This document shows positions 20,780-34,183 of a stretch of 36,899 bases of DNA, piece after piece. The DNA is from Pseudomonadota bacterium. GTDB lineage: Bacteria; Pseudomonadota; Alphaproteobacteria; Acetobacterales; Acetobacteraceae. The position numbers and the translations under genes are program-made. Each line of letters starts with the position of its first letter. The first letter of the stretch is position 1. Under the pieces are notes generated by a model. It did no database searches. It was not told the DNA's origin and saw nothing but the letters and a program-made list of their open reading frames with translations. The stretch lies in contig JAKAEC010000015.1 of the NCBI GenBank assembly GCA_021818425.1, forward strand, positions 1 through 36,899, given 5' to 3'.

Positions 20780-21553
20780 CTACTTCTCGACGAATGCCTT
20801 TTCGATCACATATTCTCCCGGCTCGGAGTGGTTGCCTTCGGAGAAGCCCCGTGCGTCCAGCATGGTCTGCAGGTCGGCCAGCATTTGTGGGCTGCCGCAG
20901 AGCATCACGCGGTAGTCATCCTTATTCAGGCGCGGCAGGCCGAGATCGACTTCCAGCTTGCCATGCTCCAGAAGGGCCGAAATCCGACCGGTATTGCGGA
21001 AGGGCTCGCGCGTCACTGTGGGATAGTAAAGCAACTTCTCCTGCGCCATCTCTGCGAAGATTTCGTCTTGCATCAGTTCAGCTACGATCTTTTCGCCGTA
21101 GGCAAGCTCGGCCACATGGCGGCAGCCATGCACCAAGATGATCTTCTCGTAGCGTTCATAGGCGTCGGGGTCTTTGATGATGCTAGCGAACGGCGCCAGC
21201 CCCGTGCCAGTCGAGAGCATGAGCAGATATTTGCCAGGCGCAAGATTGTCCTGGATCAGCGTGCCAGTGGGTTTGCCGCCAATGATGATTTCATCGCCCG
21301 GCTGAAGCTTTTGCAAATGTTGGGTAAGTGGCCCGTTCGGCACCTTGATCGAGAAGAACTCAAGTTGGTCTTCATAGTTGGCGCTGCACAGCGAATAGGC
21401 GCGCAGCAGCGGTCGGCCGTTCACCGGCAGGCCGATCATTACAAATTGCCCATTGATGAAGCGCAAACCGGGATTGCGCGTGGTGGTGAAGCTGAACAAT
21501 CGGTCAGTCCAGTGCCGGACGGTTTTCACCGTCTCGGTATACATCGTCGCCAA
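20780..21553 (-). CDS. fpr: ferredoxin/flavodoxin--NADP+ reductase
   Basis: Fpr passes electrons between NADPH and ferredoxin or flavodoxin, in oxidative-stress defence and in the supply of reductant to iron-sulfur and radical enzymes. The 257-residue protein matches the bacterial subclass. The FAD-binding motif RAYS is at residues 51-54, followed by FFSIKVPNGPLTQHL. The NADP domain shows LMLSTGTGLAPFASI and VMLCGSPQML. The C-terminus YVIEKAFVEK is typical of this subclass, which lacks the plant-type terminal Tyr. It is transcribed away from the PLP-fold gene, across a spacer of 182 bases. Confidence 0.94.
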   Translation of the reverse strand: MATMYTETVKTVRHWTDRLFSFTTTRNPGLRFINGQFVMIGLPVNGRPLLRAYSLCSANYEDQLEFFSIKVPNGPLTQHLQKLQPGDEIIIGGKPTGTLIQDNLAPGKYLLMLSTGTGLAPFASIIKDPDAYERYEKIILVHGCRHVAELAYGEKIVAELMQDEIFAEMAQEKLLYYPTVTREPFRNTGRISALLEHGKLEVDLGLPRLNKDDYRVMLCGSPQMLADLQTMLDARGFSEGNHSEPGEYVIEKAFVEK

Positions 21554-24341: not shown

Positions 24342-24962
24342 TTAACGCTGCCCGGCCTCGTCAAGAAATTGCTTGTCGATGGCAATCCACGATGAGCCGG
24401 GCGGGGCGCTGGCGAGTGACTCCTTGAACAGCAGCAGTGCTTCAGGGGTTATAGCGTCGGCCCTCTCGCTTAGAGCTTGGCCTAGATAAGCCTCACCCTC
24501 GCTGGCATTGGCCGAGTGTGGGTCAACTGTCGCAAGGTGCGCGCGCAACTTGGTAATCAACTCGTTGAGCAGCGCATATTGCCGCCCGTAGCGGGCCATC
24601 CAGGTGGCATGCGGCTCCGAGGGCACATTTGGCGCGCTGCCCGGCAGGTACAGCATAAACGCGGCCACCGGTAGGCAAAGCATGGCGGCAATTAACAAGG
24701 GCTTAGCGTTGCCGGTCTGGGGGGGCTCGTGCAGTTGGTCGGCGGCGAGCAGCCGATGCTCAATTTCAAGCCGCGCGGCTTGGTATTCCAATTCGGGCAG
24801 CAGGCCGATGGCGGCATCACGCGCCAGCTCATCCAACTGCGCACGGTAAAGCGCCAGCGCCGCCGTTCGCAATTCAGTATTTCGTGGCTGGCGGCGCAGT
24901 GCCAGCACCAGCGGCAATGTTAGCGCCACGGCGAGCGCGGCTTGTAACAAAAATAGCGTCAA
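24342..24962 (-). CDS. ccmI: cytochrome c maturation protein CcmI
   Basis: CcmI presents the apocytochrome c C-terminus to the heme ligation complex CcmF/CcmH in the inner membrane and periplasm. The 206-residue protein has the expected two membrane segments (about residues 2-20 and 88-107) with a cytoplasmic helical stretch between them (LYRAQLDELARDAAIGLLPE). The C-terminal periplasmic part is short, holding one TPR-like region (EGEAYLGQALSERADAITPE), so it is a reduced CcmI. Its start overlaps the ccmH stop (ATGA). It is the last gene of the operon. Confidence 0.88.
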   Translation of the reverse strand: MTLFLLQAALAVALTLPLVLALRRQPRNTELRTAALALYRAQLDELARDAAIGLLPELEYQAARLEIEHRLLAADQLHEPPQTGNAKPLLIAAMLCLPVAAFMLYLPGSAPNVPSEPHATWMARYGRQYALLNELITKLRAHLATVDPHSANASEGEAYLGQALSERADAITPEALLLFKESLASAPPGSSWIAIDKQFLDEAGQR

Positions 24963-25399
24963 AGTAAGTCCCTCAGCCTCGCCTGTTCACCATCGGTCAA
25001 AGGCGGCGGCGGCGCGCCGCCGCGTCGGACCGCCCAAACCGCCACTCCTCCAGCCAGAAGCGCTATCGCCGGCATGGCATAAAGAAGCCAAGTGAGCGGG
25101 CTGAACGGCGGCTTGAGCAGAATGAAAATACCATAGCGATGTACCAGATAAGCCTGGATTTGCCGCGGCGGTATCCCGGCTACCACCTGCTGGCGGATGA
25201 TCCCTCGCAGCTGTTTGGCCAGCTTCGCATCCGACGCCTCAAGGCTTTCACCCTGGCAGACCAGGCAACGCAGCTTTCCGCCAATTTGTTCGGCCTCAGT
25301 CTCCTGGGCTTGGGTCAGGGTCACGCCATCGCGTGTAACCATGGCCTGGGCCAGCGCCATGCTTGGCAGCAAGGCTAGCAGCAGCAGCCAGCGCTTCAT
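24959..25399 (-). CDS. ccmH: cytochrome c maturation protein CcmH (thiol oxidoreductase, CcmL type)
   Basis: CcmH reduces the CxxCH cysteines of apocytochromes before heme attachment. The signal peptide covers residues 1-18 (WLLLLALLPSMALA). The redox motif LRCLVC (Cys45, Cys48) sits in the family-specific GGKLRCLVCQGESLEASDA; the more usual QNQSI is replaced by QGESL. A C-terminal membrane helix (about 105-127) follows YGIFILLKPPFSPLTWLLY. It overlaps ccmG and ccmI by four bases at either end. Confidence 0.93.
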   Translation of the reverse strand: MKRWLLLLALLPSMALAQAMVTRDGVTLTQAQETEAEQIGGKLRCLVCQGESLEASDAKLAKQLRGIIRQQVVAGIPPRQIQAYLVHRYGIFILLKPPFSPLTWLLYAMPAIALLAGGVAVWAVRRGGAPPPPLTDGEQARLRDLL

Positions 25400-25956
25400 G
25401 CATAACGCTCCAATAGCGGCTCAATCTGCTTCTGCACCAGATTGTCCGTCAGTGCGCCTGCGAAATGCCAGCGCACTATGCCGGTCTTGTCGATCAGAAA
25501 GGTTTCGGGCACGCCGTAAACGCCCCAGTTCACTGCGGTCAGGCCCGATTTGTCGTTGCCTATCCGGGTATAGGGGGTGCCATAGAGGCTTAGAAATTGC
25601 GCCAGGGCTGCTGGGGTATCTTCGTAATCAATGCCCCAGATCGGCACTCCCTTGGCGGCCAACTCGGCAAGCTGCGGAGCCTCCTGTGGGCAGACTGCGC
25701 ACCACGAGGAAAACCAGTTCACCAGAACGGGGGTTGCCATGTTCACGAGGTCAGTATTGGCGAATCCAGGCAGCCCGCCTGTGCCTGGTAGCGAAAAAAC
25801 GGGGACAGGCTTGCCCAGCAGTGGCGATGGAAAGGCTTCCGGGTTATATTGGCCCCGGCGCATGCGCCCCAGCAGCGTATACATTGCCGCCCCGCCAGCC
25901 GCGGCCACCGCCAGCGGCACGCCAAACAATAAACGGCGGCGCAATGGCGACATCAA
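25396..25956 (-). CDS. ccmG: thiol:disulfide interchange protein CcmG/DsbE
   Basis: A membrane-anchored periplasmic thioredoxin that keeps apocytochrome or CcmH thiols reduced. The N-terminal anchor spans about residues 9-29. The active site is WCAVCPQE (Cys86, Cys89), preceded by LVNWFSSW and followed by the GVYGVPETFLIDKTGIVRWH region typical of CcmG with its cis-proline. The length of 186 residues is normal. ATGA overlaps on both sides show tight coupling with ccmF and ccmH. Confidence 0.94.
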   Translation of the reverse strand: MMSPLRRRLLFGVPLAVAAAGGAAMYTLLGRMRRGQYNPEAFPSPLLGKPVPVFSLPGTGGLPGFANTDLVNMATPVLVNWFSSWCAVCPQEAPQLAELAAKGVPIWGIDYEDTPAALAQFLSLYGTPYTRIGNDKSGLTAVNWGVYGVPETFLIDKTGIVRWHFAGALTDNLVQKQIEPLLERYA

Positions 25957-27881
25957 GAGCGTCTCCGTGCAGGTGCACCCACCCGCAGTCGCCGGTCTGA
26001 GAGCGAGAAGAATCCGCCCAGCGCCATGATCAGCCCTCCGAGCCAGATTTCTGGAGCCAGCGGGTGCACATCCAGGCGCAACTCGGCATGGCCGTTCGGC
26101 TCGCCTGCGAACACCGCATAGAGGTTGACAAAGCCGTTGGTATGGATCGCCGCGTCGGAGGTGATAACCTTCTGCGCCGAGAAAAATCGTCGCGAGGGAT
26201 GCAGAACAAGTCCGTCAACATGCAACGTTGCAATATGCTGGGTATAATCCGGTCCGGGTGCGGCGGTTATGCTCTCAAGTTGCCAATTATACCCGCCAAC
26301 CTTTACAGATTGGCCCGGCGAAAGCACTACCACGCTTTGTGAGGCCAGTGTCATGCCGGCAATGCCCAGAACCGTAACGCCAAAGCCAAGATGCCCAAGT
26401 GCCGCGCCAACCTGTGCCCTGGGCAGCTTGAGCAGCCGGGCAAAAGCCGCGCCCGGGCTCACGCGCGTTATGCCTGCGCGTGTTGCGAGGTCGGTCAGGG
26501 CCGAGACTATCACCCAGGCACCTCCCGCGAGCCCCAGAGCAGTGATCAGGTTGGTGTTCGCGGTCATTGCTATCAGCAGCAGAAGCGCCGCCGCGCCTGC
26601 CAAGGCTAGGCGTCGTAATACGGGCGCTAGTGCTGCGCGCTTCCAGGCCAGCAACGGCCCGGCGCCCATGGTTAGAATAATCGGCACCGAGAGCGGAATG
26701 ACTGTCTCGTTGAAAAATGGCGCGCCGACCGAGATTTGAACACCAGTGAACACGTTCAGCAAAGGAGGGTAGAGCGTGCCGGTGAACACTACGGCGGTGC
26801 AGGCGCCGAGAAACACGTTGTTTAATACCAATGCGCTCTCGCGCGAGAGCGGCGCATAAATGCCGGCCGCCGCCAGCACCGGGGCGCGGATGGCGAACAG
26901 CAGTAGCGACCCGCCAATGGTGATGCCAAGCAGTGCCAAAATGAACAGCCCTTGGTTGGGTGAGGCCGCAAAACTGTGGACCGAGTTGAGAATGCCTGAG
27001 CGCACTAGAAATGTGCCGGTGAGCGAAAGCGAGAACGTAGCGATCGCAAATAGCACTGTCCAGGCTTTCAACGCTTCCCGCTTCTCAACCACGATGGCGC
27101 AGTGCAGCAGCGCTGTACCAGTGAGCCAGGGCAGCAGCGAAGCGTTTTCAACAGGGTCCCAGAACCAATACCCGCCCCAACCCAGCGTATAATAAGACCA
27201 CAAGGAGCCGAGTGCGATGCCGCCGGTGAGAAAACACCAGGAAATCAATGCCCACGGCCGCACCCACCGGCCGAACGCGGCATCCACTCGGCCTTCTAGC
27301 AATGCTGCGATTGCGAAGGCGAATGCTACCGAGAAGCCGACATAGCCGATATAGAGCATAGGAGGATGAAACGCGAGGCCGGGGTCTTGCAGCACCGGGT
27401 TTATGCCCATCCCGTTCTGTGGTGGCGGCCAGATGCGAGTAAATGGGTTGGAGACGGTTAGCGTGAACAGCAAGAAGCCCGCCGAGACCAGTCCTAGCAC
27501 CCCCAGCACGCGTGCGCGCAGGCTGGCGGGCAGGTTGCCGCCGGCCACTGCAACCGCTAGCCCGCACAGTGAGAGAATCAGACACCAAAGCAAGATCGAG
27601 CCGTCGTGATTTCCCCACACCCCCGAGATTCGGTAAAAAAGTGGCACCTTGGAAGAGGAAAAATCGGCGATATTCTTAACCGTGAAATCCGAAACCACCC
27701 CCGCCCAAACCAGCGCACCAAACGCGCAGGCGGCGGCGGCAAACTGGCTCACGGCGAGTAGCGGCGCGGCAGCCAGAGCGCGCGGGTCGCGCAAAAGTGG
27801 GCCGATCAGCCCCACGACCGCTTGTGTCACCGCAAGGGCCACCGCTAGCGCCAGAGCGAAATGCCCAAGTTCAGGAATCAT
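25953..27881 (-). CDS. ccmF: heme lyase subunit CcmF
   Basis: CcmF ligates heme to apocytochromes c at the outer face of the inner membrane. It is a 642-residue protein with about 14 membrane segments. The tryptophan-rich WWD domain reads LGWGGYWFWDPVENASLLPW, and the preceding conserved loop is FYRISGVWGNHDGSILLW. The segment FLVRSGILNSVHSFA, with its conserved His, is also present. A large periplasmic domain near the C-terminus contains LHVDGLVLHPSRRFF, and the last helix (GGLIMALGGFFSL) ends in a basic tail. It overlaps ccmE and ccmG by four bases each. Confidence 0.96.
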   Translation of the reverse strand: MIPELGHFALALAVALAVTQAVVGLIGPLLRDPRALAAAPLLAVSQFAAAACAFGALVWAGVVSDFTVKNIADFSSSKVPLFYRISGVWGNHDGSILLWCLILSLCGLAVAVAGGNLPASLRARVLGVLGLVSAGFLLFTLTVSNPFTRIWPPPQNGMGINPVLQDPGLAFHPPMLYIGYVGFSVAFAFAIAALLEGRVDAAFGRWVRPWALISWCFLTGGIALGSLWSYYTLGWGGYWFWDPVENASLLPWLTGTALLHCAIVVEKREALKAWTVLFAIATFSLSLTGTFLVRSGILNSVHSFAASPNQGLFILALLGITIGGSLLLFAIRAPVLAAAGIYAPLSRESALVLNNVFLGACTAVVFTGTLYPPLLNVFTGVQISVGAPFFNETVIPLSVPIILTMGAGPLLAWKRAALAPVLRRLALAGAAALLLLIAMTANTNLITALGLAGGAWVIVSALTDLATRAGITRVSPGAAFARLLKLPRAQVGAALGHLGFGVTVLGIAGMTLASQSVVVLSPGQSVKVGGYNWQLESITAAPGPDYTQHIATLHVDGLVLHPSRRFFSAQKVITSDAAIHTNGFVNLYAVFAGEPNGHAELRLDVHPLAPEIWLGGLIMALGGFFSLSDRRLRVGAPARRRS

Positions 27882-28366
27882 GAGCTGCTCCCCAGTGCGT
27901 CAGGGCCGGGTGCCGGCCCGAACTTCGGGTTCCACTTACCCGCCTTCTTTAAGGCTTCGGCAACATCGCGGGGCATATAGGTCGAGCCGTGTTTGGCCAG
28001 CACCTCCTTGGCGTGGAACACGCCGCCGGGCGTCATCGCGCCGATTGTCACCACACCCTGCCCAGCCCCGAACAGATCCGGTAATATGCCAGTATACACC
28101 ACGGGCACCGAGGCTTGGCCGTCGGTGACATCAAACCGTGTAGTCAGGCTTTCGCCGCTCTGTGTGGCTTGTATTGTGCCAGTCTCGACGATGCCGCCCA
28201 GCCGGAATGTCTCGCCTACAGGCGGCGCGTGCGCTACCACCTGCCGGGGCGAAAGGAAATACGTCAGCGACGACGAGAAACCGACCAGCATGAACGCGGT
28301 GGCGCCGCCGAAGCCGAGCAGCAGAGCGCTGATCAGGTAAAGGCGCCGGGTTTTTGGTTTGAGCAT
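27878..28366 (-). CDS. ccmE: heme chaperone CcmE
   Basis: CcmE carries heme covalently from CcmC to CcmF in the periplasm. The N-terminal anchor lies at about residues 8-30. The beta-barrel core contains FRLGGIVETGTI and YTGILPDLFGAGQG. The heme-binding His126 lies in the HxxxY motif HGSTY (126-130), within VLAKHGSTYMP; the more usual DEN between them is replaced by GST. The length of 162 residues is normal. The start codon overlaps the ccmD stop (TAATG). Confidence 0.94.
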   Translation of the reverse strand: MLKPKTRRLYLISALLLGFGGATAFMLVGFSSSLTYFLSPRQVVAHAPPVGETFRLGGIVETGTIQATQSGESLTTRFDVTDGQASVPVVYTGILPDLFGAGQGVVTIGAMTPGGVFHAKEVLAKHGSTYMPRDVAEALKKAGKWNPKFGPAPGPDALGSSS

Positions 28367-28506
28367 TACAGACCTTCGGCTTGGGTGAGGTGGGCGGAGG
28401 CACGGCGCAAGCGGCGCCAGGCGAGCAGGCTGGCACCCGCCAGAAACAGTGCCGAAACGGCATAAGCGCCGTTAATGAAGGTCCAAGGGTCGAGATGTTG
28501 GATCAT
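28366..28506 (-). CDS. ccmD: heme exporter protein CcmD
   Basis: A 46-residue single-helix protein that helps release holo-CcmE from the CcmABC complex. It reads MIQHLDPWTFINGAYAVSAL, then a hydrophobic stretch, and finishes with a basic cytoplasmic tail (WRRLRRASAHLTQAEGL). This is the normal CcmD pattern. Its ATG overlaps the ccmC stop (28503-28506) and its stop overlaps the ccmE start, exactly in the usual ccmC-D-E position, which makes the call secure despite the small size. Confidence 0.9.
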   Translation of the reverse strand: MIQHLDPWTFINGAYAVSALFLAGASLLAWRRLRRASAHLTQAEGL

Positions 28507-29297
28507 GCGTCATGCTCCGCATTGGCCAGCAGCAGAGACGACGTCTTGCGCTCCATGATGGCGGCCAGCATTCGCGCCAGCACCAGCGACACAAAGCTGA
28601 GATAGAAACCAAGCGTACTCACCAGTAATGGGTATAGCATCGACGGATAGATCGACGAGCCGGACAACGAGATCGAGTTGCCCTGGTGCAGCGTGTTCCA
28701 CCATTGTACCGAGAACACGATGATAGGCAGGTTGACCACTCCTGCCAGCGCCAGAATCGCCCCCGCGCGATAGCCGCGCTCGCGGCTTTCAAAGCCGCGT
28801 ACCAGCGCGATATGGCCGAGGTAGAGGAAAAACAGAATTAGCACCGAAGTCAGCCGTGCATCCCACACCCAGTAAGTGCCCCAGGTCGGCCGTCCCCAGA
28901 GAGCGCCGGACACCAGGCAAACAAACGTAAACCCCGCCCCCACCGGGCCGATTTCTTCCGCCGCGATATCTGCCAGTGGATGGCGCCAGACCAGCGAAAA
29001 GAACGAGCACAGCGCCAGCGTCGCGTAGCCAGACATTGACACCCATGCGGCGGGAACATGCACATACATAATGCGGGCGGCATTACCCTGCTGAAAATCG
29101 GCCGGTGCGAACACGTAACCCCAGACCATGCCGGTCACTGTTAGCAGCGCAGATACTGCTGCCAACCAGGGTAGAACGGGCCGCGCAAAACGGACAAACC
29201 TACCAGGATTTGCAAAATAATGTAGCCAACCGCTTTGTCGGCGGCGGCCAAGCTCCATCCTTGCCGGAAGCTTGCCGGCATCTTGCTTGGACTGCAT
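28503..29297 (-). CDS. ccmC: heme exporter/handling protein CcmC
   Basis: CcmC attaches heme to CcmE at the periplasmic face. The 264-residue protein has six membrane helices. The WWD motif is WGRPTWGTYWVWDARLTS, flanked by the conserved histidines in MYVHVPAAW and in the helix after ARLTSVLIL (YLGHIAL). The N-terminal 30 residues are polar and somewhat long; a start at a later ATG (residue 14, MELGRRR) is possible. It is the first gene of the minus-strand ccmC-D-E-F-G-H-I run. The 95-base gap before it contains the terminator-like hairpin of the upstream cytochrome genes. Confidence 0.93.
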   Translation of the reverse strand: MQSKQDAGKLPARMELGRRRQSGWLHYFANPGRFVRFARPVLPWLAAVSALLTVTGMVWGYVFAPADFQQGNAARIMYVHVPAAWVSMSGYATLALCSFFSLVWRHPLADIAAEEIGPVGAGFTFVCLVSGALWGRPTWGTYWVWDARLTSVLILFFLYLGHIALVRGFESRERGYRAGAILALAGVVNLPIIVFSVQWWNTLHQGNSISLSGSSIYPSMLYPLLVSTLGFYLSFVSLVLARMLAAIMERKTSSLLLANAEHDA

Positions 29298-29355
29298 GCG
29301 TTCTCTATAGCCTCCAGCCCTTGGGAAATCAAAGTACCCGCAAGCACAGCAAGTT

Positions 29356-29383
29356 CCGCCACCCGCTTTAGTGCGGGTGGCGG
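29356..29383 (-). terminator. hairpin between the cytochrome genes and ccmC
   Basis: Arms CCGCCACCCGC (29356-29366) and GCGGGTGGCGG (29373-29383) pair perfectly over 11 bases around the loop TTTAGT. It begins 10 bases past the cytochrome c stop on the minus strand. No T tract follows, so termination may be weak and some read-through into ccmC is possible. Confidence 0.55.
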
Positions 29384-29392
29384 GGGCACCCC

Positions 29393-29776
29393 TTACTTGC
29401 CGGCGATGGAGGCAAGATAGGCGATTACGTCAGCGCGCTTGCCGGCATCCTCAATCCCGGCGAAGGGCATTTTTGTGCCCGGTACGGTGGCCTGTGGCGA
29501 GGTTAGGAATTTATCTAGCGTGGCTGCGTCCCAGGTCAGGTGGGCGTTTTTCATCGCCGGAGAGTAATCGTAATTGCTTTGCGCGGCTGCCGGCCTGCCA
29601 TAGACGCCCGCTAGGCTCGGCCCAATGCCAACGCCGCCCGGCTGGTTGGAATGGCACAACGCACACTGGCTGGCATAAATACTCTTCCCAGCACTGACGG
29701 AACCGGCCGCCTCAGCGGCGCTCATGCCGGCTGCGCCCGCCAGCAGAATTGCGAGAATAGGTAAACGAAGTTTCAT
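29393..29776 (-). CDS. small class I cytochrome c, periplasmic
   Basis: A monoheme electron carrier. It has a signal peptide (about residues 1-24, ending AAEA/AG) and one heme site, CALCH (Cys38, Cys41, His42). The sixth ligand is Met103, in GTKMPFAGI. The GPSLAGVYGRPAA and FLTSPQATVPGTKM stretches are those of the cytochrome c2/c550 family found in alphaproteobacteria. ATG 29776 is preferred because AAGGA lies seven bases upstream; an ATG at 29782 is too close to it. The gene follows the outer-membrane heme protein gene by 18 bases, so the two are probably one transcript, a secreted carrier beside a possible outer-membrane electron conduit. Confidence 0.92.
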   Translation of the reverse strand: MKLRLPILAILLAGAAGMSAAEAAGSVSAGKSIYASQCALCHSNQPGGVGIGPSLAGVYGRPAAAQSNYDYSPAMKNAHLTWDAATLDKFLTSPQATVPGTKMPFAGIEDAGKRADVIAYLASIAGK

Positions 29777-29794
29777 GGTCATTCCTTACAAAAG

Positions 29795-31150
29795 TTAAAG
29801 GGCAAGCCAAATGCCGGTGAAGATAACGTCGTTGTCGCTCGCATTGCGGCCGGAGCCATCATAGTTGTGCGACAGGCCGTTGAACACGGGATAGAACGTG
29901 TCTTCCACAAAGAGCTTGGCATTCATCCAGGGCATGAACGAGGGACCACCATTGTTCCAAGGGTAATAGTCCAGCTCGGTGGTAAAGCTGGTGGTGTTGG
30001 GTTTGCCATTGGCATTGCCCGAGATCGGCGCTGCCGAGTAGATTGCCGGATCGGCATTACCCCAGATGCCATTATACGTTTCGGTAATGCCAACCTTTTG
30101 CAAGTAGAGGTACGAGGCGGTCAGCGTCACCTGGTTCAGCTTGTCGGTTGGGTTCGAGGTCAGACCTAAAGGATAGCTGGCATCCCAATGCTGACTTTCA
30201 TGCATATAGAGCGCCTGCAATGACAGTGCGTGGGTAATGGTAATCCACTGGAACTGTGCGTCGGCCCCGGTATCGACCATCTGGTCTGTCGGACCGCTCT
30301 TGTAGCCAGACGGGTAGGGGTTGTCGATTAACCCCAGCGCACCGACCTCAAAGGAGCTTGCCCCCCAGCTATGCTGATAAGCAATACGCCAGTAGGGAAT
30401 TACCCCGGAGATTCCAACTTCCGGCCCGACCCCCAGCATTTGGGCCGTGTGGTTGGGCAACTGGGTGTAGAAATCGGCCTCGGTGTAGAGCAGATCCGAA
30501 GGCGTGATGTTGAGCGCGCCATAAGCGCCCAAACCATATACCGCTTGGCCAAGTCCACTAATCTGCGTGCCTGCGGTGCTGCCTAGCCCCAACTCATCGG
30601 GGATAAACGGATACCCCCAGGCCGGTGGCGTGTTCCACAAGTCGGTCACGCCCGGGTTATTGTTGAAGGTTAGGCCGACAAATGTCGGTATGCTGCCAAG
30701 ATCGAGCGGGCGCGCGATACGAATGTCGACATTGTCCCAGTGGAATTGGTGGGCAACCCCATCGAATGTACCTTGTACGAACGCGCCAAGGCCGATTGGG
30801 GCATAGAGTGCGCCACCATAGAACAGGCTGGTTTGCTGCACCGAAAACGCGTCATTAGAGGGGAAATCAGGAGCCAACCCGCCGGGCACGTTCTGATTTA
30901 GGTAGGTAAATCCAGCCTGCGTCATGGCAGCGAAATTCTTGAGCGTCGGCGTGCTGCCGCCCGCTACGTAGCCTTCAAGCTTGAACAATCGTCCATAGGC
31001 GGTAAGCTGCGGAAAGCCGATATGACAAGCCGAACAGGGCTCACCTGTCTGGGCCGCGAAAGCGGGAATGGCCTCGGCCCTAGGTGCGGCAATAATGCTG
31101 GCGAGCAAAGGCAAGGCAGCCGCTATGTAGCGGGATGCACGAGAACTCAC
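29795..31150 (-). CDS. predicted outer-membrane monoheme cytochrome with barrel-like body
   Basis: The GTG start at 31150 has a perfect AAGGAGG six bases upstream. A signal peptide (residues 1-28) is followed at once by a single heme c site, CSACH (Cys39, Cys42, His43), in PAFAAQTGEPCSACHIGFPQ, then LTAYGRLFKLEGY. The remaining 390 residues are rich in Gly, Tyr, Trp, Asn and alternating hydrophobic residues, without membrane helices, as in an outer-membrane barrel: GALYAPIGLGAFVQGTFDG, SLQALYMHESQHWD, FTTELDYYPWNNGGPSFMPW. One heme fused to a porin-like barrel within about 450 residues is the architecture of Cyc2-type iron oxidases. Similar proteins of unknown role also occur widely, so iron oxidation is only a possibility. 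The gene precedes a periplasmic cytochrome c and lies within the ccm locus. Confidence 0.72.
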   Translation of the reverse strand: MSSRASRYIAAALPLLASIIAAPRAEAIPAFAAQTGEPCSACHIGFPQLTAYGRLFKLEGYVAGGSTPTLKNFAAMTQAGFTYLNQNVPGGLAPDFPSNDAFSVQQTSLFYGGALYAPIGLGAFVQGTFDGVAHQFHWDNVDIRIARPLDLGSIPTFVGLTFNNNPGVTDLWNTPPAWGYPFIPDELGLGSTAGTQISGLGQAVYGLGAYGALNITPSDLLYTEADFYTQLPNHTAQMLGVGPEVGISGVIPYWRIAYQHSWGASSFEVGALGLIDNPYPSGYKSGPTDQMVDTGADAQFQWITITHALSLQALYMHESQHWDASYPLGLTSNPTDKLNQVTLTASYLYLQKVGITETYNGIWGNADPAIYSAAPISGNANGKPNTTSFTTELDYYPWNNGGPSFMPWMNAKLFVEDTFYPVFNGLSHNYDGSGRNASDNDVIFTGIWLAL

Positions 31151-31380
31151 GACAAGCCTCCTTGTTAATTATTCGAAATTAACTCGTGGACAATGACGTC
31201 AACGATCATATTTCGAGTTTGCTTGTCTTAAACGAGGATTCGTCGTGAGGCATTGACTTGAATCAAGCCGGGCGGTTTGAAAAGATTAAGAAAATATCAA
31301 CAACAAGGCGATATTTGTTTGCGCTTCTTTCTTGGGCAACGGACATCATTTCGTCGTTGCCAGGGGTAAGGTAGTGCACC

Positions 31381-31412
31381 AAAAAACACCCCCGGCGTAT
31401 GCCAGGAGTGTT
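31381..31412 (-). terminator. strong intrinsic terminator after the triheme cytochrome gene
   Basis: On the minus strand AACACTCCTGGC and GCCGGGGGTGTT pair over 12 positions, two of them G-U, around an ATAC loop. A run of six T's begins at the end of the stem. It starts 24 bases after the stop codon at 31436 and isolates the triheme gene from the outer-membrane cytochrome gene downstream. Confidence 0.85.
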
Positions 31413-31435
31413 CCTTTGGCGGGCCTGAGAGCTGC

Positions 31436-32767
31436 TTATTTGGCCTTTTCTGCCACCCCTGCGCGCTTGCGCAAGGCCGCCACCATACCGGGGGTGGCAT
31501 TCGGCACGCCCTTGTTGCCCCAACTGGTGCGCACATAATTGGCGATATCGGCAATGTTCTGATCTGAGAGCTGTGTTGCGAAGCTTGGCATCGGAACGTC
31601 GGTCCATGCGTCAAGTCCACTCAGCACCGCGCCGATAACATTGTAGGGGTAGGCGGCCGTGACCGAGTCGTTGCCGGCTAGGTTGGGCACCATCTTAGGC
31701 GCCATGCCACCCCCCTGCGTGCCATGGCAGGCCGCGCAATTATTGGAATAGAGTACGGCGCCGCGCGCGGCCGAGGCGGCCGCGTCGCTCACCGCGGCGG
31801 GTGGCGTTACCCGCTGGGGGGCGGTGGCGGTTTGCAGGTAAAGCGCGATATCTTGATCGTCAGAGATAGGAAGTTGACTGGTCGAATGGCGGGTCATCTC
31901 CCCCATCGCGGCATAGGGCGAACCTTTCACCAGGTTGCCCCCATCGTGCAAATAAGCGACCAAGTCGGCTCGGCTCCAGCCTCCCACGCCTTGGGCTTTA
32001 TCGGAGGAGATATTAGGCGCGTAAAATGCGTCGATGGGCGCGCCGGCGAATGCCTTGCTAGGGATCATGGCCGAGAGGAAGTTGCGCGGCGTGTGGCATT
32101 CCTGACAATGGCCGAGCGCTTCTGTCAGATAGGCGCCGTTTTTCATCTGCTCATTCCAGGCGGGGTTCATATGCATCGGTCCGGCGCGGAAAAACAGTAG
32201 CCGCCAGCCCAGCAGCACCGGGCGCTGGTTGAACGGGAACATCATCGAAGACGGTGTCGGCTTTACCCGCACGGGCTTCAGGCTGTCGAGGTACGCTTTG
32301 ATGGCCATCGTGTCGGCATAAGACAGCTTGGTGTAGGATGTATAAGGCATGGCGGGGTAGAGGAAGCGCGGGAACACCAGCCAGTCACGGCCTGGAGCGA
32401 TGCCATAGTGAAGGGCGTCGTAAAATTGTTTGTTGGTCCAGTTGCCAATGCCCGTGGTGGGGTCTGGGGTGATGTTTGGCGAGGCAAGTCCGCCATAGGG
32501 AGTCTTCATCACCAGCCCGCCGGTGAAGGGTGCGTGGTTTGGGCCGGTGTGGCAGGGCTCGCAATCGGCCGCCGTCACCAGATATTTGCCCCGGGCGATC
32601 AGTGCAGCACTGCCGGTTGGGGCTGTCAGTGAGGCGGCTGGGTAGTTGGCGGCATCGTCATTGGCGGCTGCGTCGCGCACAAAAACGGCGCCACCCAGCA
32701 GCAAGGCCAGTGCGCCCAATGCCAGTGTGTAGTTTGTGAATGCCTTGAACCGCAAAAGACTTAACAT
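31436..32767 (-). CDS. triheme membrane-anchored cytochrome c (alcohol/gluconate dehydrogenase cytochrome-subunit type)
   Basis: A 443-residue protein with an N-terminal signal or anchor (about residues 13-31) and three heme c sites: CEPCH (69-73), CQECH (221-225) and CAACH (344-348). The spacing and motifs such as TPYGGLASPNITPD, MPYTSYTKLSYADTMAIKAY and NGAYLTEALGHC are those of the cytochrome subunit of membrane PQQ- or flavin-dependent dehydrogenases, which passes electrons to ubiquinone in the periplasmic face of the membrane. No dehydrogenase subunit is encoded next to it. The ATG at 32767 is favoured by a G-rich ribosome site; an in-frame GTG at 32773 is possible. It is divergent from ccmA and ends in a strong terminator. 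Confidence 0.9.
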   Translation of the reverse strand: MLSLLRFKAFTNYTLALGALALLLGGAVFVRDAAANDDAANYPAASLTAPTGSAALIARGKYLVTAADCEPCHTGPNHAPFTGGLVMKTPYGGLASPNITPDPTTGIGNWTNKQFYDALHYGIAPGRDWLVFPRFLYPAMPYTSYTKLSYADTMAIKAYLDSLKPVRVKPTPSSMMFPFNQRPVLLGWRLLFFRAGPMHMNPAWNEQMKNGAYLTEALGHCQECHTPRNFLSAMIPSKAFAGAPIDAFYAPNISSDKAQGVGGWSRADLVAYLHDGGNLVKGSPYAAMGEMTRHSTSQLPISDDQDIALYLQTATAPQRVTPPAAVSDAAASAARGAVLYSNNCAACHGTQGGGMAPKMVPNLAGNDSVTAAYPYNVIGAVLSGLDAWTDVPMPSFATQLSDQNIADIANYVRTSWGNKGVPNATPGMVAALRKRAGVAEKAK

Positions 32768-32776
32768 ACCCACCCC

Positions 32777-32804
32777 CCCTAGGGGATGCGCGATTACATC
32801 CCCT
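32777..32804. promoter_or_regulatory. nested inverted repeats over the triheme cytochrome leader
   Basis: AGGGGATG (32781-32788) and CATCCCCT (32797-32804) form a perfect 8-base inverted repeat with an 8-base spacer. CCCCTAGGGG (32777-32786) is a second, overlapping perfect palindrome. Both lie just upstream of the triheme start codon and touch its G-rich ribosome site. They could be a regulator site or an RNA fold that competes for the ribosome site. Confidence 0.45.
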
Positions 32805-32945
32805 GAACGGGCGGCTTCTTAACCCCTCATGCCGTACCAAGAAAAGACATGGATCAAGGCCGCAGATAAATTCTTTTTCTTCAGCCGCCTTGTTGCCTGC
32901 GCGCTAGCTTGCCAGTACACCGCGCCAGTACGCCGCCAGTTTCGC

Positions 32946-33542
32946 ATGCGGCGGTGCAAAAGGCGTGTGGTGGCAAACCTCCTGACAGGCGAAGACATCT
33001 CGGTATTCCGTGGCGAGCGGCTAGTGCTGCGGGGCGTGGCGCTGCGCGTCGAGTCGGGCGGTGCGCTGGTGCTGCGGGGCGAGAACGGGGCCGGCAAATC
33101 CACCTTGCTGCGCGCCCTGGCAGGGCTGATTCCCCTGGCTACCGGCCGGATCGCCTGGAACGGCACGTCGGCGCAGGCCGATTTTCCGGCCCATGCCGCG
33201 CGCATCGCTTGGCTGGGCCATCTTGACGGCATCAAGCCCGGCCTTTCAGTGTCCGAACATGTTGCTGACCCCGAGCGCTTGGCGGTACTGGGCCTTGAAC
33301 GGTTCGCCAACCTGCCGGCGCGTTTTCTCTCGGCGGGGCAGAAGCGGCGCCTAGCCCTGGCACGGGTGGTTTCAGCCAATCGGCCGCTCTGGCTGCTAGA
33401 TGAACCAACCACCGGGCTCGATACCGCCTCCGTTGCCCGTTTTGCCGACGTGTGCGCGACGCACCGTGCCGCTGGCGGCATGATCGTCACGAGCACGCAC
33501 ATGGCGCTTGATCTGCCTGGAGCGGAGGTGTTGGCGCTATGA
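32946..33542 (+). CDS. ccmA: heme exporter ATP-binding protein CcmA
   Basis: The ATPase of the CcmABCD complex, which powers release of holo-CcmE. Motifs in the 198-residue protein are Walker A GENGAGKST (45-53), the signature LSAGQKRRLALARV (the Q after SAG is usual for CcmA), and Walker B LWLLDEPTTGLD. The frame is open from 32829, but those first 39 codons are unlike CcmA; ATG 32946, or a GTG at 32967, gives the family length. It overlaps ccmB (ATGA at 33539-33542). Together they form a plus-strand ccmAB unit separated from the minus-strand ccmC-I operon by three cytochrome genes. Confidence 0.93.
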   Translation: MRRCKRRVVANLLTGEDISVFRGERLVLRGVALRVESGGALVLRGENGAGKSTLLRALAGLIPLATGRIAWNGTSAQADFPAHAARIAWLGHLDGIKPGLSVSEHVADPERLAVLGLERFANLPARFLSAGQKRRLALARVVSANRPLWLLDEPTTGLDTASVARFADVCATHRAAGGMIVTSTHMALDLPGAEVLAL

Positions 33543-34183
33543 GGTCCTTAATTGCGCGCGAGTTGCGGTTGGCTTCGCGCCAAGGTTCTGACACCGTTGC
33601 GGCGCTGGTATTCTTCATTATTTGCGGCACCATGTTCGCCTTCGGTGCTGGTCCAGACCCCAAACTTCTCGCGGGGCTGGCACCCGGTGTTGTGTGGGTT
33701 GCGGCACTGCTTGCTGCGCTGCTGCCGCTCGAGAAATTGTTCGGGGCGGATTTCGAAGACGGCACTCTTGATCTGCTGTTGCTCTCAGGTCTGCCGGCCT
33801 ATCTGGTAGCCCTGGCCAAGTCCTGTGCGCACTGGCTCACCACCGGCCTACCGCTGCTTCTCATCGCGGCGCCGCTCGCCATCATGTTGCGTATGCCAAG
33901 CCACGTCGTGCCGCTGCTGCTGATCGGGCTGGTGCCGGGCACGCTCATCTTCTCATTGGTGGGCACGCTGACCGCCGCCCTCACCCTAGGCGCACGGCGC
34001 GGCGGCGTGTTGATGGCGCTGATCACTCTGCCCCTGATGATGCCAGCTCTGATCTTCGGCGCCAATGCCGTGATGGCCCCGCACCCCCTGGCGGCTTTCG
34101 CCTTTCTGGGTGCCATTTTGTGTCTGGCCCTACCCCTGGCCCCTTTGGCGGCAGGGGCGGCGCTGCGCTTAGCGGTGGAATAA
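33539..34183 (+). CDS. ccmB: heme exporter protein CcmB
   Basis: The membrane subunit of the CcmAB ABC complex. The 214-residue protein has six hydrophobic segments and the typical start MRSLIARELRLASRQGSDTV. Also conserved are FGAGPDPKLLAGLAPGVVWV, LEKLFGADFEDGTLDLLLLS and the PLMMPALIFGA stretch. The ATG overlaps the ccmA stop. Confidence 0.95.
   Translation: MRSLIARELRLASRQGSDTVAALVFFIICGTMFAFGAGPDPKLLAGLAPGVVWVAALLAALLPLEKLFGADFEDGTLDLLLLSGLPAYLVALAKSCAHWLTTGLPLLLIAAPLAIMLRMPSHVVPLLLIGLVPGTLIFSLVGTLTAALTLGARRGGVLMALITLPLMMPALIFGANAVMAPHPLAAFAFLGAILCLALPLAPLAAGAALRLAVE

Follow-up and report, generated by a model that had tools for sequence, protein, structure and literature searches.

What is a porin-like protein with a single heme site doing among the heme-attachment genes of a ccm locus, and which way would electrons pass through it? 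The question is raised by a contig of an alphaproteobacterium of the Acetobacteraceae (JAKAEC010000015.1 in GenBank assembly GCA_021818425.1), of which we analyzed positions 1 to 36,899 of the forward strand, a stretch of 36,899 nucleotides called the window here. On its minus strand, the open reading frame (ORF) at 29795-31150 encodes a Cyc2-like fused cytochrome-porin with a signal peptide, a CSACH heme site, and a predicted 16-strand barrel, and it lies between genes for a triheme and a monoheme cytochrome c. Judged from its sequence, this protein appears to be a variant of Cyc2, built on the same plan and descended from the same family, and with its neighbors it very probably forms an outer-membrane electron conduit, whatever the direction of flow. 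As to direction, we tentatively favor a reversible iron conduit that is run mainly outward.

The fused cytochrome-porin and its altered signature

The protein comprises 451 amino acids and, as read by eye, has a signal-peptide-like start, followed by AIPAFAAQTGEPCSACHIGFPQLT and a long body. Its sole CxxCH is CSACH at residues 39-43, likewise located by eye behind the hydrophobic N terminus, and a PXL motif is present four residues past it (CSACHIGFPQL). Its length lies above the minimum given for Cyc2 (at least 365 amino acids). An AlphaFold2 model was built from an alignment (A2) of 71 sequences, namely the window protein and those from 70 of the 80 named-hit loci. This model (pLDDT 88.7, pTM 0.85) contains a short helical heme segment at residues 31-58 and 16 strands between residues 73 and 450. 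By our judgment, the 50 rows listed from a Foldseek search against the PDB were outer-membrane barrels only, including OmpT, OmpU, chitoporin, Omp32, OmpF, OprP, AlgE, and others, with TM-scores (target length) of up to 0.60. The barrel-like body put forward in the original prediction is thus borne out by the model and its porin matches. At the sequence level, no Pfam or NCBIfam model matched the protein, and a PDB sequence search returned chance-level matches only. A Cyc2-type protein encoded in another genome, G971, aligned with it end to end (32% over 494 columns, 199 bits).

The Cyc2 family has been defined by AXPXFAR[Q/K][T/Y] upstream of CXXCH, and the published tree was screened for PXFAR[Q/K][T/Y] (Keffer et al., PMC8406198). 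The counterpart of this signature in the window protein is contained, together with the CxxCH, in AIPAFAAQTGEPCSACH (residues 27-43; 31022-31072, minus strand) and reads AIPAFAAQT. The signature Arg is replaced by Ala at residue 33, and the published motif is broken. The Cyc2 plan that had been assigned to this protein therefore holds for its single heme site after the signal peptide, the fused 16-strand barrel, the neighboring cytochrome c, and the full-length homology, but not for strict membership, and because of the lost Arg we do not file it as a Cyc2 in the strict sense.

The loss extends beyond the window protein. In a tree of 130 rows out of 142 (quick search with the Arg column masked, SH-aLRT support only, and an outgroup that was not one clade), the Acidocella/Acidiphilium sequences formed one clade of 27 rows with a support of 100 among mostly Arg-bearing sequences. 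The Arg is absent from all 27 rows (25 have Ala, 1 Gly, and 1 Glu). In the undereplicated set, a pattern leaving that position free selected 35 rows, and none of these has the Arg either. The other 103 tree rows include 85 with the Arg and 18 without it, so it has been lost outside the Acidocella/Acidiphilium clade as well; at least five changes are needed on the tree. Cyc2-like proteins that have kept the Arg were seen at loci L122, L148, L154, L167, L171, L174, L176, and L178, in metagenome-assembled genomes (MAGs) labeled Verrucomicrobia, Aminicenantes, Bacteroidetes, and Gemmatimonadetes.

Partner genes were counted with one row per sequence on the 130-row tree, 19 rows not being counted. 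The 43 Arg-less rows comprised 23 with a monoheme neighbor, none with a neighbor of at least two hemes, and 20 with neither; for the 68 Arg-bearing rows, the respective numbers were 19, 21, and 28. A tie between Arg loss and partner type was rejected, as the difference is confounded by shared descent, these rows provide 4-5 independent pairs only, and the sign test was not significant.

In the literature, as covered by titles and the beginnings of abstracts, nothing names an Arg loss or a ccm linkage of Cyc2. As far as this literature goes, two features are newly described, the absence of the signature Arg throughout the clade and the presence of a triheme-cyc2-cytc module inside ccm. A screen for PXFAR[Q/K][T/Y] would discard the whole acidophile cytochrome-porin clade, and thus motif-based Cyc2 surveys may undercount such conduits in acidophiles.

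The cytochrome group within the ccm locus

The grouping of three cytochrome genes inside a ccm locus was confirmed as predicted: a triheme cytochrome c (31436-32773), the 451-residue protein with its single CxxCH, and a monoheme class I cytochrome c with a signal peptide (29393-29782) are all encoded on the minus strand. The class I protein has its CxxCH near the N terminus and matched PF00034 (E 6.8e-10, 40.6 bits, cut-off 21.3); among the best 60 of its 103 solved relatives, mitochondrial-type cytochromes c and cytochromes c2 prevail. Its gene had been described as starting 18 bases behind the Cyc2-like gene, which is true of the second ATG, better placed behind an AAGGA as read by eye, but not of the first, which follows after 12 nt. 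The triheme gene lies 285 nt upstream of the Cyc2-like gene, and at this spacing their co-transcription is plausible. A simple scan of 28400-33000 found no sigma-70-like promoter at the cytochrome group (one site, inside ccmC, against a chance expectation of 2.2), and at 8 versus 5.1 expected (standard deviation 2.8), terminator-like sites were at most loosely above chance.

Downstream of the trio and on the same strand follow ccmC (28503-29297; TIGR01191, 242 bits), ccmE (27878-28366; model matches), ccmF (25953-27881; Pfam), ccmG/dsbE (25396-25956; model match), ccmH (24959-25399; PF03918), and ccmI (24342-24962; TIGR03142). On the other side and on the plus strand, divergent from the cytochrome group, are the ABC ATPase gene ccmA (32829-33542; PF00005), which owes its name to its place beside ccmB, and ccmB itself (33539-34183; model matches). 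Elsewhere in the window, 20780-21553 (minus strand) encodes an FAD/NAD-binding oxidoreductase (PF00970, PF00175), which also weakly matched a ferric reductase NAD-binding domain, below the cut-off of that model.

The triheme protein carries CxxCH at residues 71, 223, and 346 and shares homology with the cytochrome subunits of dehydrogenases that act on alcohol, glucose, fructose, and aldehyde (ADH, GDH, FDH, and ALDH). Matches to those of glucose, fructose, and alcohol dehydrogenases had E values of 4.2e-61 to 1.7e-57 over approximately 380-390 residues. The C-terminal tail of the dehydrogenase triheme subunits is taken to hold the membrane anchor. Compared with 8gy2_B, 7w2j_C, and 8hdd_B, the three best matches, the window protein is 34-47 residues shorter at this end, but it reaches to within 2 residues of the end of 8gy3_A, the aldehyde dehydrogenase subunit. 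Its hydropathy maximum past residue 60 is only 1.03, and that of the N-terminal hydrophobic stretch, which may serve as either signal peptide or anchor, is 1.82. A Pfam scan of 26 window proteins, which left short ORFs and a few longer ones outside, found no dehydrogenase of the ADH/GDH/FDH/ALDH sort. The triheme protein had been called a membrane-bound, quinone-side partner; as a dehydrogenase-subunit homolog that is shorter than its three best matches, though not than the aldehyde dehydrogenase subunit, and has no dehydrogenase among the scanned proteins, it leaves that role unproven.

The order ccmB-ccmA / triheme-cyc2-cytc-ccmCEFGHI is common to the source genome and to G140 and G256, genomes of two close species, and the proteins are 76-89% identical across the three species. 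dN/dS was about 0.12 for the triheme gene, about 0.07 for the cyc2-like gene, and 0.14-0.20 for cytc. The order kept in G140 and G256 and the low dN/dS argue that the arrangement is not due to chance, and the substitution pattern suggests that all three cytochrome genes are maintained by purifying selection. Among the loci examined, the ccm/triheme arrangement was found in these three genomes only. The cyc2/cytc pair lies at most 1.5 kb upstream of ccmC in 3 of the 30 ccmC loci examined in the genus (of 35 found), the window included, and ccm linkage as a genus trait was rejected on this count. Of the 19 other cyc2 loci examined in the genus (26 were found), 17 have no triheme gene at a distance of up to 1.5 kb, and eight wider cyc2 loci from other members of the genus were also without it. 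With the pair missing near ccmC in the other 27 of 30 loci, and the triheme gene in 17 of 19, the ccm position of the group looks recent.

It is quite possible that the placement inside ccm is a passive rearrangement with no functional meaning, an explanation that concerns the position only and would be compatible with any reading of function. The 3 of 30 count speaks for it, as does the location of cyc2 elsewhere in other Acidocella. It is opposed by the order kept in three species at their degree of protein divergence, and by cyc2-like genes beside ccm runs in two further lineages, at L118 in an alphaproteobacterial MAG and at L146 in a gammaproteobacterial one. These were found in a scan of 143 loci, 139 of them with a cyc2 match and some genomes represented twice. 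At L045 and L047/L120, a lone ccmI-like gene lies behind the cyc2/cytc pair.

The source genome (2.13 Mb, 116 contigs, 86% complete) belongs, on the basis of stretches of 7-11 kb at approximately 75% that four loci of its genus share with named Acidocella loci, to the genus Acidocella. Cyc2-like genes were detected in 27 of 38 genomes of this genus (in two of the 27 only as fragments). A sample of 299 genomes from the family contained relatives in 81 (E 1e-5), and a sample of 398 from the phylum in 88 (E 1e-8), with many of the latter matches covering the N-terminal stretch only. The named matches, taken as the best 80 of 568, include MAGs labeled Verrucomicrobia, Bacteroidetes, Gemmatimonadetes, and Rokuibacteriota. 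Stop codons interrupt Cyc2-like matches at G232:C2:35456-36785 and in G183:C148; G232 has an uninterrupted copy elsewhere.

Direction of electron flow

In the mechanism that we propose, the barrel protein would let dissolved iron meet the heme, the small cytochrome c would carry electrons across the periplasm, and the triheme cytochrome would feed electrons to this cytochrome c, standing in where the bc1 complex is degenerate. In acid, the net flow would be mainly outward, with the barrel protein as the Fe(III)-reducing end in a host presumed to be a heterotroph. The same parts could run inward, from Fe(II) via cytochrome c to an oxidase, given high-potential carriers and an oxidase. Electron uptake through the outer membrane, the role first suggested for this locus, is thus not supported as written, because there is evidence for both directions; outward flow is the tentative preference, mainly inward flow through an iron conduit has a smaller yet appreciable chance, and another use of the conduit is improbable.

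The need for an alternative electron source follows from the bc1 operon of the source genome (L288, G000:C15). Its Rieske protein matched the N-terminal model only (E 0.001) and is missing the ligand motifs; the motif region, inspected in the source genome only, reads ...PCQLEGN...CPCDGS. The cytochrome b frame is open over 435 codons, and its C-terminal domain scored 39.5 bits here and 28.2 bits in G140, whereas G256 gave no match to it at E 1e-5. The cytochrome c1-like sequence of the operon still has a CxxCH. By these sequence features, the bc1 complex of the source genome is degenerate, and the degenerate Rieske protein and weak cytochrome b C-terminal domain imply that cytochrome c would need another source of electrons.

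Several lines of evidence favor outward flow. Class I cytochromes c usually have potentials well below that of Fe(III)/Fe(II) in acid, which favors this direction. No RuBisCO match was found in the source genome, in G140 (100% complete), or in G256 (99%), and heterotrophy is presumed for the host; in the genus, RuBisCO was detected in 3 of 38 genomes (G328, G329, and G320; L290-L292), all three also with a cyc2-like gene. The triheme gene has been kept beside the module in three species. Furthermore, the literature regards Acidocella and Acidiphilium as reducers of Fe(III), and in the parts of the reports used here no Fe(III) reductase has been conclusively identified beyond the suggested outer-membrane cytochrome ApcA of Acidiphilium cryptum (PMC7142476, from 2020; PMC4571130, from 2015; PMC7677001). 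Finally, outward use of Cyc2 has been published as a proposal for Acidithiobacillus ferrooxidans (PMC8790237).

Other observations weigh against mainly outward flow. ApcA has itself been put forward in print as the possible Fe(III) reductase of A. cryptum (PMC7142476), the triheme protein has no proven connection to the quinone pool, and the triheme gene is missing from most of the other cyc2 loci of the genus, as described above. Moreover, three features point inward. The source genome has a mitochondrial-type oxidase operon on contig C53, encoding subunit I as well as subunits II, with a copper-site-like motif, and III, both read by eye. It also encodes two rusticyanin-like proteins (L213, G000:C4, 8187-8861; L214, G000:C62, 42-611), which scored 96.8 and 86.9 bits against a cut-off of 146.7 and matched PDB rusticyanin at 6.5e-15 (C4) and 2.9e-21 (C62). 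In Acidiphilium iwatense (L034/L111), coxB(heme)-coxA-cyc2-cytc form one run, and a second oxidase of the source genome, with a heme-bearing subunit II, matches the oxidase of this run (L285 on C39; coxA 78%, coxB 63%). C39 is a small contig with a resolvase-like gene too, as read by eye.

On this evidence, it is possible that Fe(II) is oxidized outside and that its electrons pass via cytochrome c to a terminal oxidase, a side energy source that would bypass the degenerate bc1 complex; we give this explanation less credence than outward flow. An inward direction has been argued for Acetobacteraceae by Degli Esposti et al. (PMC10715153). It is difficult to align with G140 and G256, in which the same module is present and no rusticyanin-like genes were found, with the lack of a RuBisCO match in the three genomes, with an oxidase linkage seen in one species only, and with the loss of the signature Arg.

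An obligate partnership with rusticyanin was rejected, because a match (E 1e-10) was found in 9 of 38 genus genomes and in neither G140 nor G256. At E 1e-20, no other genome among the 398 sampled from the phylum had a rusticyanin-like match besides the source genome, and searches of 398 and 274 genomes recovered, besides the source genome, only G971, G917, and G863. Query A1 matched G971 alone of these three, and G917, with the only rusticyanin above the cut-off, gave no match. Behind the cyc2 gene of G971 lie an ORF that looks cupredoxin-like by eye, although it had no Pfam match, and coxB-like, coxA-like, and rusticyanin-like genes, the product of the last scoring 137.2 bits and thus remaining under the cut-off. 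As read by eye, the neighborhood of the C4 rusticyanin-like gene of the source genome includes two cation-efflux-like ORFs of the CDF type as well as a MerR-like regulator.

Acidocella, Acidiphilium, and their kin are generally known from acid, iron-rich waters, which counts against a substrate other than iron. A heme-bearing porin that serves a different metal, an organic electron acceptor, or the defense against peroxide is accordingly quite improbable, given the close structural and sequence kinship to Cyc2 and the occurrence of the clade in Acidocella, Acidiphilium, and nearby genomes, even though homologs exist in Paraburkholderia, Ralstonia, Telluria, Methylocapsa, and others, which are not known as iron oxidizers, and additional Cyc2 functions are allowed by Keffer et al. 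(PMC8406198).

Returning to the outward reading, it is tempting to speculate further that the Arg-less clade is the missing outer-membrane Fe(III) reductase of acidophilic Acetobacterales, a Cyc2 turned reductase after the Arg loss and, in this lineage, coupled to the triheme cytochrome in replacement of a broken bc1 complex. In this full form the proposal is unlikely. The locus nevertheless provides a concrete Fe(III) reductase candidate with a likely electron carrier for Acidiphilium/Acidocella and offers a direct test.

Relation to known systems

A 2023 report (PMC10715153) described Cyc2 homologs from Acetobacteraceae (Acidocella MX-AZ03, Acidibrevibacterium), their genes often adjacent to one for a mono- or diheme cytochrome; hence this kind of protein is already known. 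A similarity network published for Acidithiobacillus Cyc2 also includes Acidiphilium and Acidocella (PMC10654088). The window locus resembles the 2023 homologs in its organism group, adjacent cytochrome, and degenerate bc1 complex, but the ccm linkage, the triheme gene, and the lost Arg are not mentioned in the portions of that account used here (PMC10715153).

With Cyc2 of A. ferrooxidans and Cyc2PV-1 of Mariprofundus, the window protein shares the signal peptide, a single N-terminal CxxCH, PxL, a 16-strand porin, a length of more than 365 amino acids, and a neighboring cytochrome c. It differs from these proteins, as they are described, in having Ala for Arg and a monoheme class I cytochrome as its partner. 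Also different is its setting, a ccm locus that includes a triheme cytochrome gene, in a window containing neither cox nor rus genes. The G971 cluster resembles the published rus-cluster layout, as far as the source describes it, but no cyc1 was picked out there (PMC10654088).

The proposed role is closest to that of A. ferrooxidans Cyc2 as a terminal ferric reductase, likewise a barrel cytochrome with an outward direction (PMC8790237). In the account given for that species (PMC8790237), electrons pass from the quinone pool to bc1, CycA1, and rusticyanin, whereas here the triheme cytochrome and the class I cytochrome c would supply them. The triheme protein has three CxxCH domains like the ADH/GDH/FDH/ALDH cytochrome subunits (PDB 8gy2, 8hdd, 7w2j, and 8gy3) and differs from them in that no such dehydrogenase was found among the scanned window proteins. 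As in PioAB and MtoAB, electrons would take a path through an outer-membrane barrel (PMC10654088). Those systems combine a separate decaheme cytochrome with a larger barrel, whereas in the window protein one heme site is fused to a predicted barrel of 16 strands.

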